DNA from: Vogesella indigofera
GTDB taxonomy: Bacteria > Pseudomonadota > Gammaproteobacteria > Burkholderiales > Chromobacteriaceae
Length of the DNA stretch: 64,000 nucleotides
Assembly (NCBI RefSeq): GCF_003633895.1
Contig: NZ_RBID01000011.1
Location: 310,001-374,000 of the forward strand
Direction of reading: 5' to 3'
Below are positions 57,274-64,000 of this stretch, piece by piece. The position numbers and the translations under genes are program-made. Numbering within the stretch: the first letter of the stretch is position 1; the number at the start of each line of letters is the position of its first letter. Below the pieces are notes generated by a model, which worked only from the letters and a program-made list of their open reading frames with translations, had not been told where the DNA came from and made no database searches.

Positions 57274-57607
57274 GCCGGACTGATTTGGCTCATGAAACCG
57301 CACCTCTTCGGGTGCGGTTTTTTATTGCCGCTTTTATAATCTGCGGCCAACCTTACCGATCCGTATGCAGGGGGACAGCATGATCTGTGTACCAGCTTTT
57401 TTTACTCAAAGAAATTACATTTCAGCTTAAGACATATGGCTTTATTGGAGCGGGAGGGGGTAGGCTGTTTGTGTTTAACAAATAAGCAGGGGCAGTGCGT
57501 AGTGCTACCTTTCCAAGCCTCAAACACGTCAGGTGCCCATGCCTGCAACCGACCGCTTCGGTCGACGATTGGCCCCCTCCCCATGGTGGACATGGCTGCA
57601 GATCGGC
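57274..57607. other. Junction between native chromosome and the foreign end region
   Basis: About 330 bases with the argG terminator, the last DUS-like motif copy (57342-57351), then AT-richer DNA up to the IS1182 left end. Small reading frames on both strands (for example 57436-57711) cross the IS boundary or lack ribosome sites and were not accepted. No tRNA or attachment site was recognised. Confidence 0.55.
57296..57323 (+). terminator. Rho-independent terminator after argG
   Basis: AACCGCACC (57296-57304) pairs with GGTGCGGTT (57311-57319), loop TCTTCG, followed by a T-run. It lies 22 bases after the argG stop. Confidence 0.92.
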
Positions 57608-59221
57608 GAGGCTGTGTGGAAACGCAGCACCGGTTAATGCCAAAGTGGTTCGCACCACCTCTTGCCGGGTTATCCAGTTCGGTCTCAGTGCGAACAAGGC
57701 TATTTAGATGAGTAAAAGGCTCCCTTCAGGCCTTTACTGCCGCCATTAACCCTGCAAATCCTATGATCTTCATGACTCGCTTCAAGTTGTAGGCAAGTAC
57801 GTGCAAGCTCATCTCGGTGCTGACATGTTCCGGGGTACGTGTCAGGAAGTGCGTCGCCCCCATCCAGTCTTTCAATGTCCCGAAGGGATGCTCCACAGTC
57901 TGCCGCCGTAGTTTCATCGCACCAGGCTGGATATCCAGTCGCCTTTGCATGGCTTCCAATGTGGCTTCGTGCTCCCATCGATTGACACGTCGATAATCAC
58001 TTGGCGTACACTTTTCTTTGATCGGGCAACGCGGGCAGTCTGAGCCCCAGTAACGATTGATCTGCAGGCCAGACTTAATCCGGGCAAATCGCCATTTCAA
58101 GCGACTGCCTGCCGGGCAGACGTATTCGCCAGCGACCGGATCAAACACGAAGTCCTCTTTGTCGAAGCGCCCTTCGGCCTTCGCGCCAGAGGTCATCGGT
58201 TTTGATACCAGCGCAGTAATGCCGGCCTCTTCACACTTTTGAATTTCTTCGCCTTTAAAGTAGCCACGATCTGCAATGGCTTGCATGCCCAAGACATCCA
58301 GTGCCGACTGCGCTTGTATGGCCATTTTGGCCAGTTGGCTGCGATCACTGCCGCTATTGGTAACTTCATGGGTAACGATGAGATGGTGCCGGGTATCGAC
58401 AGCGGTCTGCACGTTATATCCCACCAGTCCACGGTTGGTACTGGTTGCCATGGCGCGGGAGTCTGGGTCGGTCAAAGAAATCTGCGCAGAGGGCTCTTGC
58501 TCTAACTGCGCCTGGATCTGCTGCAGTCTTTCCATGCTCTTTTTCAGAGTGGCCATCTTTTGCTGAATTCGCGTGGTTCGCGCTTCCGCTATCTCTGAAG
58601 GCTGGCGATCTGCGGTTTCCAGTGCACTGAGATAACGCGCAATGCAGTGATCAATTTCCTGCATCCGCTTCTCCAGTTTGCCACGCGTGAAGTTGCGGTC
58701 GTGAGCATTTACCGCCTTGAACTTGCTGCCATCAATGGCGACGACAGCGTGCGTGAATAGCTTCAGCTCCCAGCACAGCACAACGAACTGCTTGCAGACA
58801 TTGCAGATACCGGTGCCATTGTCTCGTCGAAAGTCGGCAAGCGTTTTAAAGTCGGGTGCAAGCCGTCCCAGTAGCCACATCAGCTCAATGCTGTGCAGAG
58901 CCTCCCGTTCGAGGCGGCGACTGGATGGAGTCCGGTTGAGGTAACCGTAGATGTACAGCTTGAGCAAGATGGCTGGATGGTAAGACGGCCGCCCCGTGGC
59001 TTTGGGATCGACGCCGGCAAAGCCAAGCCCGCGCAGATCGAGTTGCTCGACAAAGGCATCCACGATGCGCACCGGGTTGTCTTCACCGACATAGTCATCA
59101 AGCAGCACTGGCAAAAGTGCGGCCTGCGACCTATTCTTTCCTTGAACGAACCGTGTCATTGCGCAACCCTCGGCATGCCATTAGGAACATCATAGACACG
59201 AAGACGTTTTCACACGGCCTC
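57608..59221 (-). mobile_element. IS1182-family insertion sequence, complete
   Basis: A 1614-bp element. The left end GAGGCTGTGTGGAAACG (57608-57624) and the right end read inward, GAGGCCGTGTGAAAACG (59221-59205), match at 15 of 17 positions. It is flanked by the 4-base direct repeat CGGC (57604-57607 and 59222-59225), which fits a target-site duplication. It holds one intact transposase gene, so insertion was probably recent. Confidence 0.85.
57726..59159 (-). CDS. IS1182-family transposase
   Basis: A 477-residue DDE transposase, intact. It starts MTRFVQGKNRSQAALLPVLL, has the N-terminal DUF772-type region (ATGRPSYHPAILLKLYIYGY), an acidic site around AVVAIDGSKFKAVN, a second at QAIADRGYFKGEEI and the C-terminal segment RQTVEHPFGTLKDWMGA with the likely catalytic Glu. 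A cysteine cluster (CPAG, CPRCPIKEKC) is typical of this family. It fills most of the element between the inverted repeats. Confidence 0.93.
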   Translation of the reverse strand: MTRFVQGKNRSQAALLPVLLDDYVGEDNPVRIVDAFVEQLDLRGLGFAGVDPKATGRPSYHPAILLKLYIYGYLNRTPSSRRLEREALHSIELMWLLGRLAPDFKTLADFRRDNGTGICNVCKQFVVLCWELKLFTHAVVAIDGSKFKAVNAHDRNFTRGKLEKRMQEIDHCIARYLSALETADRQPSEIAEARTTRIQQKMATLKKSMERLQQIQAQLEQEPSAQISLTDPDSRAMATSTNRGLVGYNVQTAVDTRHHLIVTHEVTNSGSDRSQLAKMAIQAQSALDVLGMQAIADRGYFKGEEIQKCEEAGITALVSKPMTSGAKAEGRFDKEDFVFDPVAGEYVCPAGSRLKWRFARIKSGLQINRYWGSDCPRCPIKEKCTPSDYRRVNRWEHEATLEAMQRRLDIQPGAMKLRRQTVEHPFGTLKDWMGATHFLTRTPEHVSTEMSLHVLAYNLKRVMKIIGFAGLMAAVKA

Positions 59222-59450
59222 CGGCCAAAACAGCCATTCAGACACCAAGTGAACAATGACTGGTTGTTGCTACCAAGTGGTCATTCAATGCCCTGTGACT
59301 ACGAGCCTATGGAGTGGTGTTAACTCCAACTCCAGCTATCCCGCTATTGGGGGAAAAATTTGACCTACCCTTGTCGATTACCAATTCCCATACTGTCTTT
59401 ATGACCTGCGTATCGGTCACCCACGTCAAGAATTCGATCAGGATGGTGTT

Positions 59451-59723
59451 ATGAGAGACTCATGGTGCAAACCGGTTCGGGTTCGAACCGGCAATATCGT
59501 TAGCGGTGGGGCTGCCCGCAATGTGCGGATTGCCGCGTTGGGGGGCATGGGTGAGATTATTGAAGAAGTTGCCAGATCGGCCGTCGAGCAGGGGTTGGCT
59601 CGTGCCGATACAGCGGTTCGCAAGCGACTTCTTCGCGTGGTCAGCGGTGCGAGAAGTATGCCTGCAGATGCCGATTCCCCCATAGCCCCGGTTAGCCGGG
59701 GTTTATATTTGGTTCTTATATGA
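59451..59723 (+). CDS. Small hypothetical protein between two IS elements
   Basis: A 90-residue reading frame with a reasonable ribosome site (AGGATGG, 7 bases before the ATG). The middle part (ALGGMGEIIEEVARSAVEQG) is predicted to be helical. No family is recognised. The last codons run through a hairpin terminator (59686-59701), which is odd for a complete gene and suggests either that the true 3' end has been lost or that the frame is not a gene. Confidence 0.35.
   Translation: MRDSWCKPVRVRTGNIVSGGAARNVRIAALGGMGEIIEEVARSAVEQGLARADTAVRKRLLRVVSGARSMPADADSPIAPVSRGLYLVLI
59686..59711 (+). terminator. Hairpin terminator inside the end of the small reading frame
   Basis: CCCCGG (59686-59691), loop TTAG, CCGGGG (59696-59701), then TTTATATTT. 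It has good terminator form on the plus strand. Confidence 0.6.
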
Positions 59724-59738
59724 ACGCGCCCCGTCTTG

Positions 59739-60314
59739 CTAGGTAAGATGGGCCTTCAGGAAGTCCTGCCAGTCGTAACTACTGGACTGACTCCCTTGGT
59801 CGGAATGCACCAGCACCTCCTGCTTGGGCTGACGTCGCCATACCGCCATCAACAAGGCATTCAGCACCAGTTCCCTATCGATGCGTGATTGCATCGACCA
59901 GCCAATCACCTGTCGCGAGAACAGGTCGAGCACCACGGCCAGATATAGCCATCCTTCATGCGTGCGGATGTACGTGATGTCAGTCACCCAGGCTTTATTC
60001 GGTGTATCCACGGTGAACTGGCGCTGCAGGTGGTTCGGCGCCACCACCGCGGGCCTGCCACGGTAATGCCCAGGACGGCGGTGATAGCCGGTTTGTGAGC
60101 GCAGGCCCTCCCGTTTCATCAAACGTGCCACATGATGTTTACCACAGCGTTCGCCCAATGCCTGCAGGTCGTCATGCACCTTGCGGTAGCCATAGATACA
60201 ACCACTCTCCAGCCAGGCCTGTTTGATTTGCCCCAACAAGCGCTGGTCTTCGCTGGCGCGAAGTGAATGCGGGGAAGCTTTCCAGGCGTAGTAGCCACTG
60301 GGGTGCACAGACAT
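59739..60314 (-). pseudogene. IS3-family transposase OrfB, C-terminally truncated
   Basis: Encodes 191 residues from the first ATG, and the frame stays open upstream to the frameshift site near 60410. An HTH_21-type segment (CIYGYRKVHDDLQALG) and an rve integrase core are seen with the first two catalytic aspartates (KAWVTDITYI; VLVHSDQGSQ). The protein stops after DFLKAHLT, so the third catalytic residue (Glu, normally about 35 residues after the second Asp) and the C-terminal region are absent. It cannot be an active transposase on its own. Confidence 0.85.
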
Positions 60315-60373
60315 GACGCGACATAGACGTCGAACAGGAAACTGCTGCTCATGAGTCCGGATGAAGGCATGCC

Positions 60374-60652
60374 TTACCCGGACTCCTTGGCAAAGTATGC
60401 GGCGGCCTTTTTTAGGATGTCGCGCTCCTCGGTCATCCGTTTCAGCTCTGCCTTGAGACGGCGGATTTCAGCTTGCTTGTCAGCAGATTCGGCCGGTTTC
60501 GCGCGCTTGGGGTCGTAGCGTTTCAGTCATTGATACAGGCTTTGGGCAGATACGCCGAGACGGCTGGCGACTTCGGCGACGGGATAGCCACGTTCGGTAA
60601 CCTGTTTAACGGCTTCAATCTTGAACTCTTCGGGGAAACGCTGCCTGCTCAT
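60374..60652 (-). pseudogene. IS3-family OrfA with internal stop codon
   Basis: Starts MSRQRFPEEFKIEAVKQVTE at 60652 with AAGGAGGTG upstream. The HTH_Tnp_1 region continues to ASRLGVSAQSLYQ and then reads TGA (60527-60529 on the plus strand) where the family has TGG (Trp of SLYQWLK). After the stop the frame goes on normally through LKAELKRMTEERDILKKAAA to TAA at 60374. The single-base nonsense change has inactivated it. Confidence 0.85.
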
Positions 60653-60855
60653 GACACCTCCTTGTAGGGCCTAGTGTGAGGCTCACGAGGTATCTAGGAA
60701 AGGATGGGCGATTCAATGATACCTATTGGAATGTAATTTATTGAATGCATCTGTTGGTTCACATGAAAGACTTGCTTAAATATCCGCGAAAAAATGCGAT
60801 TTATAGGGCTTTGTTGTTATTTCGCAACGTCGTCATGAAAAATTAGTCATCAATG

Positions 60856-60896
60856 CCATGTCGTTGGTTGGGGTCACGCAATCGGCATGGTTTTTT
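60856..60896 (+). terminator. Terminator-like hairpin with six Ts
   Basis: CCATGTCG (60856-60863) pairs with CGGCATGG (60883-60890) with one wobble, loop 19 bases, followed by TTTTTT. No gene precedes it on the plus strand, so it may end a non-coding transcript. Confidence 0.45.
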
Positions 60897-60937
60897 CTTT
60901 GAAATCAATGAGGTGGCTATCTGTTGCAAGCAGATAA

Positions 60938-60970
60938 AAAACAGGGCCGCTCAGTGATCTGCCCTGTTTT
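60938..60970. terminator. Bidirectional hairpin terminator
   Basis: AAAACAGGGC (60938-60947) pairs perfectly with GCCCTGTTTT (60961-60970). On the minus strand it continues into more Ts (TTTTTTATC), making that direction the stronger one. Confidence 0.7.
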
Positions 60971-60993
60971 GGTGCAGTTTTCAGTTTTATGTG

Positions 60994-61079
60994 CTGAACT
61001 TTCAGTAACTATGAGTCCCTACAGTTGTAGGGAGGCAAAGTTAGTGAAAACCTCCTGCCTTGCCAGGTAAGGCTTTTTT
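60994..61079 (+). ncRNA. Candidate structured RNA ending in a terminator
   Basis: Tandem stem-loops: CTGAA/TTCAG (60994-61005), CCCTACA/TGTAGGG (61017-61032), GGAGG/CCTCC (61031-61055) and GCCTTG/TAAGGC (61057-61073) followed by TTTTTT. No promoter was identified. It is about 590 bases upstream of a gene with an RT-like motif; known RT-based systems often carry a structured RNA nearby, but the link here is speculative. Confidence 0.3.
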
Positions 61080-61667
61080 CATTTTTGTGTGCTTGTAACG
61101 TAGCTGAAGAGGCGCAGAGTTCCTGAAAAAATCTGACTTTTCTGCGAAGTTGTTGAACAGAATCTGAGGAATTAGCTCCACTTGGTGGATGCGACCGTTT
61201 CCCTTGGCTGTGGCAGGCACGTTGTCACTTTTCTTCTGCAGTTCCTGCATGTACCTCATACAGTAGACCTCTTGGGGCAAAGCCGTGCCTGCCGTCCGGC
61301 AAAATTTTCTGGAGTTCGGCCGAAGAGGTCTTCCACTCCATCTGCCTTGAATGTCCGTTCAGGGCTACATTCCGGTCATTTCCCCTGCGCCATAGCCGAA
61401 AGGCGGAGTTCTGATTTGGGAGCGCGCACTCTCGACCCGATGCAGCCCTTCGTCACTGCAACGGAGCAACGACAGCAATCTGAAAGGAACAGTCACCCAT
61501 TGCAGCAGCTTATGCTCTGTTACAGTCGTTCAAAATGCTCTAGCAATGGTGTATTTTCTGATGAAAGTACTATGGCATGATGGGGTCAAGGTTGTATTGA
61601 ATCTGGGACAATCCAGACGGCTTGTTAAGATATGCCCACAAGGTCGAAGAAATTGGGAGGAAGAAAC

Positions 61668-64000
61668 GTGGATCGGTTTGACATTGGTGAGGTACTTGCG
61701 AAGTCGCCTTTAGATGAAGTAGTACGGCGCCTCGGCATCGAGACCGAGAGGCGGGGAAACCAACTCAGTGCAATCTGCCCATTTCACCAAGACACTCGAC
61801 CGTCGCTGCGTTTTTTTCCAGCGGACAGCAGATCTCCCGAGCATTTTCATTGTTTTGCGTGTGGCGCACACGGCCATGCGATCGACTTAGTTAAGCAAGT
61901 CCAAAGTGTAGATTTCTTGCCGGCGGTGCAATGGCTTTCGCAGAGCTTTGGCATCAAAGACATCCGGCGACAGCCAAAGAATCAGCCAGATCGCAAAGGC
62001 GCCATCGAAGGCGCACAGGCATTCGCGCTTCGGATATTTGATGAGCACCACGATACACAACGATTCCGGACTTGGTGCGAAGAGCGAGCCTTCGAGGCTG
62101 ATTTCCTGTACCGCCAGGGGGTGCGCTGTGTGCCTCACTCGGTTCTCGTGCAAGAGTTGGCGTCGAGAAGCACAGGCGAGCGTGTTGAGCTGATCGATGG
62201 CCTGCTTGCTCTCGGCCTGATTAAGCGCTTGCAACAAGCATCCCATTCGGATCAGTACAAGCTTAGCTTTCCAGATCAATTCCAATTGCAGTTCCAAGAC
62301 TACTTCCACGACGGGCGTGTTTTGATCCCGATCTATGGTGGTGCCGCAAAGCGACCGGAACTGGTTGGCTTCGCGGGACGGGCACTGCTGGCTGTGCCGC
62401 CAGAAGGAGTCCCCAAATACTTGTTAAGCCCAGGGTTTCAAAAAGCCAAATACCTGTTCAATGCGCCGAGTGCCTTTTCGTCAGCAACGGGGGAACTGAG
62501 GGACGGCGACACTGCAACGTTATATCTCGTGGAGGGCTTCCTAGATGCCCTACGCCTGCAGGCGTTAGGCTTGAACGCAGTGGCGCTTATGGGCACCTCA
62601 CTCAGCAATGGGCAGTTAGAGCTGCTGAAGCACTTCGTTGATGGCCTGCCACAGGGCAAGGCTGAGTTTGTACTTAGCATCTTCCTCGACAACGATAAAG
62701 CTGGGTTTGCAGGGACGGATCGGTTGGTGCGACGCCTGCTGGGTTTGTCCGGAGTTGATCTGCGCTGGATTGGCCTTGATGGCTATACCAACCGTCCGCT
62801 TGGCAAGGATCCGGACACTTGTCTAAAAGTGCTTTCGAGCCGAGTGGAGGCAACGGACTGGTTGCAGGACTTCAATCGGCCGGCCGAGGCAGCCTTGCTG
62901 GTATCCGAATTGGGAGACATTGATGCCTCCGAACTGCCGAACGAACGCTGGGCTGAACTGAATTCCAGTGCTCGGGAGCGGGCGGTGTACAAGACTGCGA
63001 CGACTATTCGACAGGTTCGTGGCTCGCGGCCTTTACAGGGCGTGATTCAGCGACTGAAGGCTACAGAAGAGAGTTGGGCTACCGAACTTTGTGAATTGCT
63101 GGGTACCGTTGAAGGAACACAGCGGAATCGGAGTTCCGTGTTGTTTCTCCAGGGCTTGGAAGAGCGCCTCTCTCATGCCCGAAATTTGGCGTATCACGGA
63201 TCGCGCCGTGGCGAGCTCCCATGCGATGAAGAATCTTGGCTGACTTTGGATTTGAGTGCGCGCCTGTTTGATCGCATTGCCCAACAACGATTGGCAGAGC
63301 GTGGCTGGATCCAAGCCGCCCCATATGATGCAGTCCACCTGCCGCGCAAGCTTACGGCTAATACTACGGTACTGGATGACCCGCGTCGCAAGGTTATGCC
63401 ACACCCGGCCGATTTGCACTTGCAACAGTTGCTGCTGAATGAACTGCTGACGCAGCGGCACGACTTGCTGAGTGTCGAAGGCAAGACCTTCTCGGAATGG
63501 ATTCCTGCTGTTCGCTGGTTTTCTGCCACCCGCAAAGTCGAAGTGACTGGGCCGTTTGACGACCTCCCCGCTGCAGAAGGGGAGGAGACCACATTGAGTT
63601 TTGGCTACCAAGTAGATATGGATGTGCTGGAGGGCAGCAAGACCCCGTCAGACCAAGGCATGTTCAGGCCCTACGGGCAGTGTTGGCGCGACTTCATGAG
63701 CAGTTTGAGCAGGCAGTGCCACGCTATCGGCGGTCGAGTGCATGTGCTTCGACTGGACGCCCAGCGCTACTACGACTCCATTCAGCGTTATGTGGTACGC
63801 GATGCACTACTGGACTCGATCAAAGGGGCTTTGACGGGAACCGGGGCGGGCATCTTCGGCCCACTACTTGGCCGGAGCGAAACAGCTAGCACGCAGGAGG
63901 TCGCAGAGGCTCTGGTCGACAAGGTTTGTAACTTCCTCTTTGGCCACCAATACCGGCCCCCAAATACAAGAGCTGTCGGCTCTAGTCTGGATGCGATTGG
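61668..64000 (+). CDS. DnaG-like primase (CHC2 zinc finger + TOPRIM) with C-terminal reverse-transcriptase-like region, partial
   Basis: About 777 residues are visible and the frame is open to the window end. The GTG start at 61668 has GGAGG 7 bases upstream. Domain 1 is a CHC2 zinc finger: C37 and H40 in CPFHQDTRPSL, C62 and C65 in FHCFACGAHGHAID. Domain 2 is TOPRIM: E289 in LYLVEGFLDALRL and D341/D343 in LDNDKAG. About 350 further residues match nothing I know, then VHVLRLDAQRYYDSIQRYVV (D697 to V712 region) resembles RT motif A, following FGYQVDMDVLEGS and GMFRPYGQCWRDF. The YxDD motif would lie beyond the window. GC content and codon use differ from the native genes. Confidence 0.75.
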   Translation, partial: MDRFDIGEVLAKSPLDEVVRRLGIETERRGNQLSAICPFHQDTRPSLRFFPADSRSPEHFHCFACGAHGHAIDLVKQVQSVDFLPAVQWLSQSFGIKDIRRQPKNQPDRKGAIEGAQAFALRIFDEHHDTQRFRTWCEERAFEADFLYRQGVRCVPHSVLVQELASRSTGERVELIDGLLALGLIKRLQQASHSDQYKLSFPDQFQLQFQDYFHDGRVLIPIYGGAAKRPELVGFAGRALLAVPPEGVPKYLLSPGFQKAKYLFNAPSAFSSATGELRDGDTATLYLVEGFLDALRLQALGLNAVALMGTSLSNGQLELLKHFVDGLPQGKAEFVLSIFLDNDKAGFAGTDRLVRRLLGLSGVDLRWIGLDGYTNRPLGKDPDTCLKVLSSRVEATDWLQDFNRPAEAALLVSELGDIDASELPNERWAELNSSARERAVYKTATTIRQVRGSRPLQGVIQRLKATEESWATELCELLGTVEGTQRNRSSVLFLQGLEERLSHARNLAYHGSRRGELPCDEESWLTLDLSARLFDRIAQQRLAERGWIQAAPYDAVHLPRKLTANTTVLDDPRRKVMPHPADLHLQQLLLNELLTQRHDLLSVEGKTFSEWIPAVRWFSATRKVEVTGPFDDLPAAEGEETTLSFGYQVDMDVLEGSKTPSDQGMFRPYGQCWRDFMSSLSRQCHAIGGRVHVLRLDAQRYYDSIQRYVVRDALLDSIKGALTGTGAGIFGPLLGRSETASTQEVAEALVDKVCNFLFGHQYRPPNTRAVGSSLDAI

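Follow-up and report, generated by a model that had tools for sequence, protein, structure and literature searches.

How can a bacterial genome carry a full kilobase without a recognisable gene directly before a large foreign one? The question is raised by positions 60653 to 61667 of a 64,000-nucleotide stretch of a Vogesella indigofera contig (NZ_RBID01000011.1, positions 310,001 to 374,000; hereafter the window), which the initial annotation had described as gene-poor and unused. We consider it very probable that this interval is the junction of two stacked Tn7-like transposons that share one attachment gene, msrB; transposition and the targeting of msrB are what we infer from the arrangement. 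The stretch is poor in genes because it is made of transposon ends carrying putative transposase sites, a dispersed repeat and the 5' region of the first cargo gene. The features to which we refer are given below (genomes of the family are labelled G, our own being G000, with contigs as C and loci as L; C1 is the contig of the window; E3 and E2 are the younger and the older transposon).

60653 to 60715, minus strand: right end of an IS3-family insertion sequence, whose orfA starts at 60652 (minus strand) and whose terminus, ...GGGCGATTCA, lies at 60715.
60850 to 61023, minus strand: msrB-side end of E2, an older, truncated Tn7-like element, with the terminus TGTAGGGACTC at 61023, read leftwards.
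61021 to 61025, no strand assigned: 5-bp target duplication ACAGT of E3, with the same ACAGT at its other end, C1:393119.
61026 to 61162, plus strand: distal end of E3, with the terminus TGTAGGGAGG, site-like repeats at 61035-61053 and 61114-61132, and a third, seen by eye only, at 61144-61162.
61313 to 61458, no strand assigned: repeat B, a dispersed intergenic repeat within E3, located between the transposon end and the reverse transcriptase gene, starting near TCGGCCGAAG and ending near TCGACCC.
61668 to 63998 (continuing to C1:379323), plus strand: start of the cargo gene RT_UG29, with a CHC2 zinc ribbon, Toprim and reverse transcriptase.

As the initial annotation had stated, the kilobase holds no recognisable gene: the two ORFs tested, of 79 aa (minus strand) and 132 aa (plus strand), had no match at E ≤ 0.001 in either Pfam or PADLOC, and the clear protein-coding match that the annotation had named as speaking against it was sought and did not appear in the searches made. 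ARAGORN found no tRNA in the window, and Rfam gave zero matches over the window at gathering score; CRISPR-DR22, the sole Rfam hit at E ≤ 1, was rejected as a chance match (E 0.64, with 18.5 bits where the gathering score is 50). Reading of the sequence likewise gave no support for the origin that the annotation had listed among its possibilities. The annotation had also counted three terminator-like hairpins facing both ways. The scan did return three such sites, a number not above chance (shuffle mean 2.1, sd 1.5), and all of them lie on the plus strand. What fits the description is a two-way hairpin read by eye, AAAACAGGGC...GCCCTGTTTT at 60938-60970, within the E2 end; its loop exceeds what the terminator scan allows, and the stretch matches the copy in G050 in both orientations.

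The word "unused" applies less well at the left edge, since positions 60653-60715 belong to the end of an insertion sequence of the IS3 family, in which TGAATCGCCC on the minus strand reads inward from 60715. In the BLASTN comparison that had been recommended, 952 bases of the interval compared with 61 genomes of the family gave matches in 27, our own included; outside the family, the matches listed were confined to the IS3 end. More specifically, plasmid matches terminate at 60715-60718 among the 20 of 134 listed, the majority of which carry an IS3-family transposase annotation, and matches in E. coli (all 9 records) and phages (all 5 records) terminate earlier, at 60660. We set the plasmid, E. 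coli and phage similarity aside, as it comes solely from the IS3 end (for plasmids, among the 20 of 134 matches listed).

The interval might be read as the decayed coding sequence of former genes, one of the explanations offered initially. E2 is clearly truncated, its other genes are gone from here, the ORFs of 79 and 132 aa remain, and the stretches 60716-60849, 61163-61312 and 61459-61640 could hold coding remains. Against this, the two ORFs match no family, and the sequence that can be recognised in the interval is that of transposon ends, which other genomes carry in the same form. We found no evidence of decayed genes and regard this reading as very unlikely.

The "large foreign gene" is real: an ORF of 2563 aa from the ATG at 61632 runs past the window end. 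Its likely start is the GTG at 61668, which is preceded by GGGAGG (61655-61660) with seven bases between; the GTG and similar next codons are common to four UG29 relatives. The product aligns with positions 1-2279 of the 2280 of the PADLOC profile RT_UG29 (2727.8 bits) and is thus full-length. Pfam assigns it PF01807 (CHC2) and Toprim, with the reverse transcriptase domain just under its cut-off (28.9 versus 29.6 bits). Its C-terminus looks nitrilase-like, a reading by eye only, for which Pfam gave no nitrilase hit and the PDB no hit. A whole-profile search of the order was uninformative below the top hit because the primase part matches widely, as expected of DnaG (292 of 300 genomes and 11 of 14 controls), and the reverse transcriptase part was therefore used alone. 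Of 369 genomes sampled from the class, our own alone matched this part; among 72,556 plasmid records there were two matches, one covering 96% of the query. A peptide-pattern scan of the genome contigs yielded three relatives. Our literature search on the UG29 reverse transcriptase returned nothing relevant.

Defence reverse transcriptases that depend on a noncoding RNA (ncRNA) form known classes, as described in the available parts of PMC13213688 and PMC13174585, and the former places the ncRNA next to the gene in some of them. The interval could by analogy encode a structured ncRNA serving as template or cofactor for the UG29 enzyme, as in DRT2, DRT3 and DRT9. One UG29 relative, L048, lends this some weight, being ~74-75% identical to L046 and L047 in a region that includes 134 and 170 bases upstream of the start; the window lacks this sequence, and its own UG29 upstream region resembles those relatives and L141 only at the start region and in isolated matches of 13-17 bases. 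Upstream sequence is hence not conserved with the four relatives, and there is no fold signal in the pieces tested: among six folds (three pieces, both strands), the best z was -1.50, with 15 of 200 shuffles equally good, and Rfam gave no match at gathering score. Moreover, many genomes of the family contain repeats A and B, whereas UG29 was matched in only 1 of 369 sampled class genomes. Repeat B was found in 14 places; the 11 compared (three 26-base hits, in G038, G055 and G057, were omitted) lie between unrelated genes, as judged by eye, in several family genomes, and the repeat folds no better than shuffles. Candidate readings of repeat B include an attC-like element and coding sequence. 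An RNA gene, which the initial annotation had also suggested, is consequently without support from folding or from Rfam, where even at E ≤ 1 matches stayed at chance level, and we judge the ncRNA reading to be slightly less probable again than gene decay.

We therefore return to the stacked transposons. E3 is a Tn7-like transposon of 22,094 bp (C1:371026-393119), whose first base is window position 61026. Twelve of 19 aligned copies of its distal end start at 61024-61026, at TGTAGGGA; the remaining seven extend further left, several into a facing end. Each E3 end carries two site-like repeats with scores of 19.1-27.7, those of the distal end scoring 27.7 and 21.6. The underlying profile was built from 30 sites of other genomes, excluding our own, and over 30.5 kb of the contig it gave five hits of 19.1-27.7, all at E3 or E2 ends, together with two weaker hits inside E3 (10.3 and 10.5); 20 shuffles gave a mean of 0.5 hits, the best scoring 17.0. 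These repeats are putative TnsB-binding sites. To judge the pairing of ends, we chose eight elements whose ends were seen on one contig, six at msrB (our own, G003, G016, G019, G025 and G027) and two elsewhere (G028 C23 and G048 C20). Equal 5-bp flanks were present in all eight, E3 included; the partner-end check covered these eight elements, and G027 has one more end (C1:145929), whose flank differs. That the repeat at 61026 is a free-standing, MITE-like dispersed repeat and not the end of E3 is the least probable of the rival readings, for although some part of the interval recurs in 27 of 61 genomes (our own included) and short derivatives exist with facing ends ~360 (G028) and ~250 (G017) bases apart after msrB, the copy at 61026 is paired with a second end across a stretch of tns genes and has the same 5 bp on either side, as is true of the seven other elements checked.

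The suggestion of noncoding functional elements was thus well founded, in that mobile-element ends make up most of the interval and one of them has a partner end, a target duplication and repeats resembling transposase sites. On these features, E3 is predicted to be mobile. Another copy of the distal end occurs in our own genome at C14:130-289, beside hflX near the start of C14, and its outer flank reads by eye like the sequence that follows msrB in G052.

The genes between the two ends fit a transposon of this kind. From the msrB side inward, their order is TnsA-like, TnsB, TnsC and TniQ, followed by Avs1a, Avs1b and the UG29 gene. TnsB carries Mu-transpos_C above cut-off (3e-8) and rve just under it (31.7 bits versus 32.6), TnsC carries TniB (1.7e-34), and TniQ, of 635 aa, has a TniQ domain above cut-off (5.7e-13). 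The TnsA-like protein stays below the cut-offs for PF08722 (1e-4; 23.2 versus 26.5) and TnsA_like_Actin (6.3e-18; 65 versus 110), and its gene is in the right position. In the scheme that we propose, the TniQ/TnsD protein of E3 would recognise the 3' end of msrB, TnsC would relay target recognition, TnsB would bind the repeated sites at both ends, and TnsA together with TnsB would cut and join the ends.

The far end of E3 falls inside the final codons of msrB (SelR domain), so that the initial idea of an att site came close: the element-side terminus is present in the interval, and the attachment gene itself sits 22 kb away, past the other end. The MsrB protein ends in ...NEQAELL, its stop codon TAG being bases 3-5 of the E3 terminus TGTAG; the msrB of G052 ends in ...NEQAEL with its own TAG. 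All 61 family genomes have msrB, and we examined the sequence after it in 60, leaving out G007, in which the gene is in two pieces; G041 and G047 offer just 3 and 38 bases past the stop. We counted a genome when a terminus lay 1-15 bases past the msrB stop (in our own genome, within the last codons) with a site score of at least 12 in leave-one-genome-out profiles. This yielded 19 of 60 genomes, or 22 with the addition by eye of G010, G022 and G025, G010 scoring about 7.2-7.3. Two candidates were rejected, G040 with a score of about 12.0-12.3 but AT-rich and lacking a terminus, and G049, which has no terminus, is followed by hflX and has a score of about 7.3-7.9, similar to that of G010. hflX likewise lies ~0.1-0.35 kb past msrB in G046, G049, G052 and G053, relatives without a transposon end there; in our own genome, it lies near the start of contig C14. 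In G028 (L106) and G017 (L107), the facing end at the short distance given above leaves a unit without room for genes, and on their sequence these units look like deletion derivatives.

Does TniQ choose msrB? Relatives of the E3 TniQ with at least 50% identity occur in nine genomes, our own included. In seven of them (G000, G003, G014, G016, G019, G025 and G027), TniQ lies on the msrB contig, ~4.3 kb from the gene, with TnsB between; in G012, pieces of TniQ occur on small contigs that do not include msrB. The ninth genome, G028, carries its 51% identical TniQ in an intact 19,264-bp element, which is flanked by CAGGC on both sides and lies between other genes, away from msrB. In G048, TnsB is 73% identical and TniQ only 40%, and the element starts 14 bases past a gene read by eye as fabI; it measures 15 kb (C20:277507-292487; L163, L166) and is flanked by GGTGC duplications. 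Among the 22 genomes that have an end past msrB, 14 lack a nearby TniQ of at least 50% identity; these 14 ends may be remnants, may be cut off from their TniQ by a contig break, or may belong to elements that use a different TniQ. The pattern fits a selection of msrB by TniQ and the element in G028 does not, so the correlation suggests, at most, that TniQ makes the choice.

Consistent with stacking, a second element abuts E3. Positions 60850-61023 are 87% identical to a G050 sequence that begins 9 bases past the msrB stop, and they contain a site-like repeat at 60996-61014 (minus strand) with a score of 19.1 in the profile made without our own genome; E2 is known here from this one end alone. 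The ACAGT duplication overlaps the E2 terminus by three bases, indicating that the two insertions are offset by 3 bp and do not share an identical position. As E2-like sequence directly follows msrB in G050, E3 appears to have been inserted between msrB and the older element. Back-to-back ends five bases apart also occur in G003, G019, G020 and G025, and in G003 and G025 those five bases are identical to the flank at the msrB end. The order of events that we propose is that E2 once lay directly after msrB and that the younger E3 (22,094 bp) would then have inserted between msrB and E2, leaving ACAGT on both sides. From the sequence arrangement, insertion of E2 would thus precede that of E3.

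Where the rest of E2 went may be explained by events further left. Colinearity with G052 downstream of argG breaks off at 57383, past which come an insertion sequence with a DDE transposase (57726-59159) and then the truncated IS3-family element (window 57383-60715). In G052, argG and msrB are on the same strand, 329 kb apart (C3:408542 and C3:737695); in our own genome 26 kb separates the two genes, which face each other, and the sequence that follows argG in G052 is found at C1:777801-779067 on the opposite strand. Judged by gene order (C1:366050-393528 and C1:777801-779067), ~386 kb of the chromosome may be inverted compared with G052, and one of the breakpoints would fall among the insertion sequences and transposons clustered in the window. 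The IS3-family insertion and this putative inversion would have parted the E2 end from the remainder of E2. Beyond that post-argG sequence, the 20 kb at C1:779072-799755, reaching to the contig end (L161, L162), hold genes that by eye resemble copper resistance (P-type ATPases and a sensor-regulator pair). They are possibly the cargo of E2.

Besides UG29, E3 carries an AVAST type 1 pair. Avs1a scores 517.4 against an NCBIfam cut-off of 420, and the main ORF of Avs1b scores 2114.3 against 1500; the N-terminal part of Avs1b is in a different frame from the remainder (C1:379893-385444; L003, L005), reflecting either a broken gene or an assembly error.

Taken together, a seemingly empty kilobase marks the border of a mobile defence island to the base and can help to locate further islands, msrB becomes a well-sampled candidate attachment gene in one family, and a rare UG29 reverse transcriptase is placed in a mobile element. 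The departures, after a fabI-like gene in G048 and intergenic in G028, could reveal which part of TniQ picks the target. Whether a Tn7-like lineage exists whose TniQ homes to the msrB 3' end across the family, and which stacks there repeatedly, can supply the stop codon and imports rare defence systems, UG29 among them, is in our view an evenly balanced proposition.

Tn7 has TGT-type ends and makes a 5-bp duplication on insertion. For Tn7 and Tn7-like elements in general, the available parts of PMC8649781, PMC11406308 and PMC10293859 describe a tnsA-tnsB-tnsC-tniQ/tnsD core, repeated end sites, insertion at the 3' end of a conserved gene and defence cargo. E3 resembles the Tn7-like transposons that use glmS, comM, tRNA genes, parE and others as attachment genes in its TnsB, TnsC and TniQ genes, with a TnsA-like gene in the expected place, in the repeated sites at its ends and in its defence cargo, and it lies at the 3' end of a conserved gene. 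By eye, we saw no Cas genes among its ORFs. We found no mention of msrB as a Tn7-like attachment gene in the literature searched, including the main texts of PMC10293859, PMC8649781 and PMC11406308, the supplements of which may list the site; one source describes a CRISPR transposon that was aimed at E. coli msrB for artificial tagging and inserted within the stop codon. The AVAST type 1 genes match Avs1a and Avs1b, and the E3 Avs1b differs in having its N-terminal part in another frame. UG29 is like the UG/Abi defence reverse transcriptases in matching PADLOC RT_UG29 over nearly the whole profile, with a predicted role in defence, and differs from them by a DnaG-like CHC2/Toprim front fused to the reverse transcriptase; its studied neighbours are DRT7/UG10 (reverse transcriptase-primase) and DRT1 (reverse transcriptase-nitrilase), a related single-gene enzyme for which the available part of PMC13275509 describes template-free DNA synthesis. 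The stacked ends are accordingly a known kind of element, here precisely placed, and E3 differs from Tn7 and its relatives in having msrB as its probable attachment gene and in supplying the stop codon from the transposon end, features that, with the rare UG29 cargo, make the locus mildly surprising.
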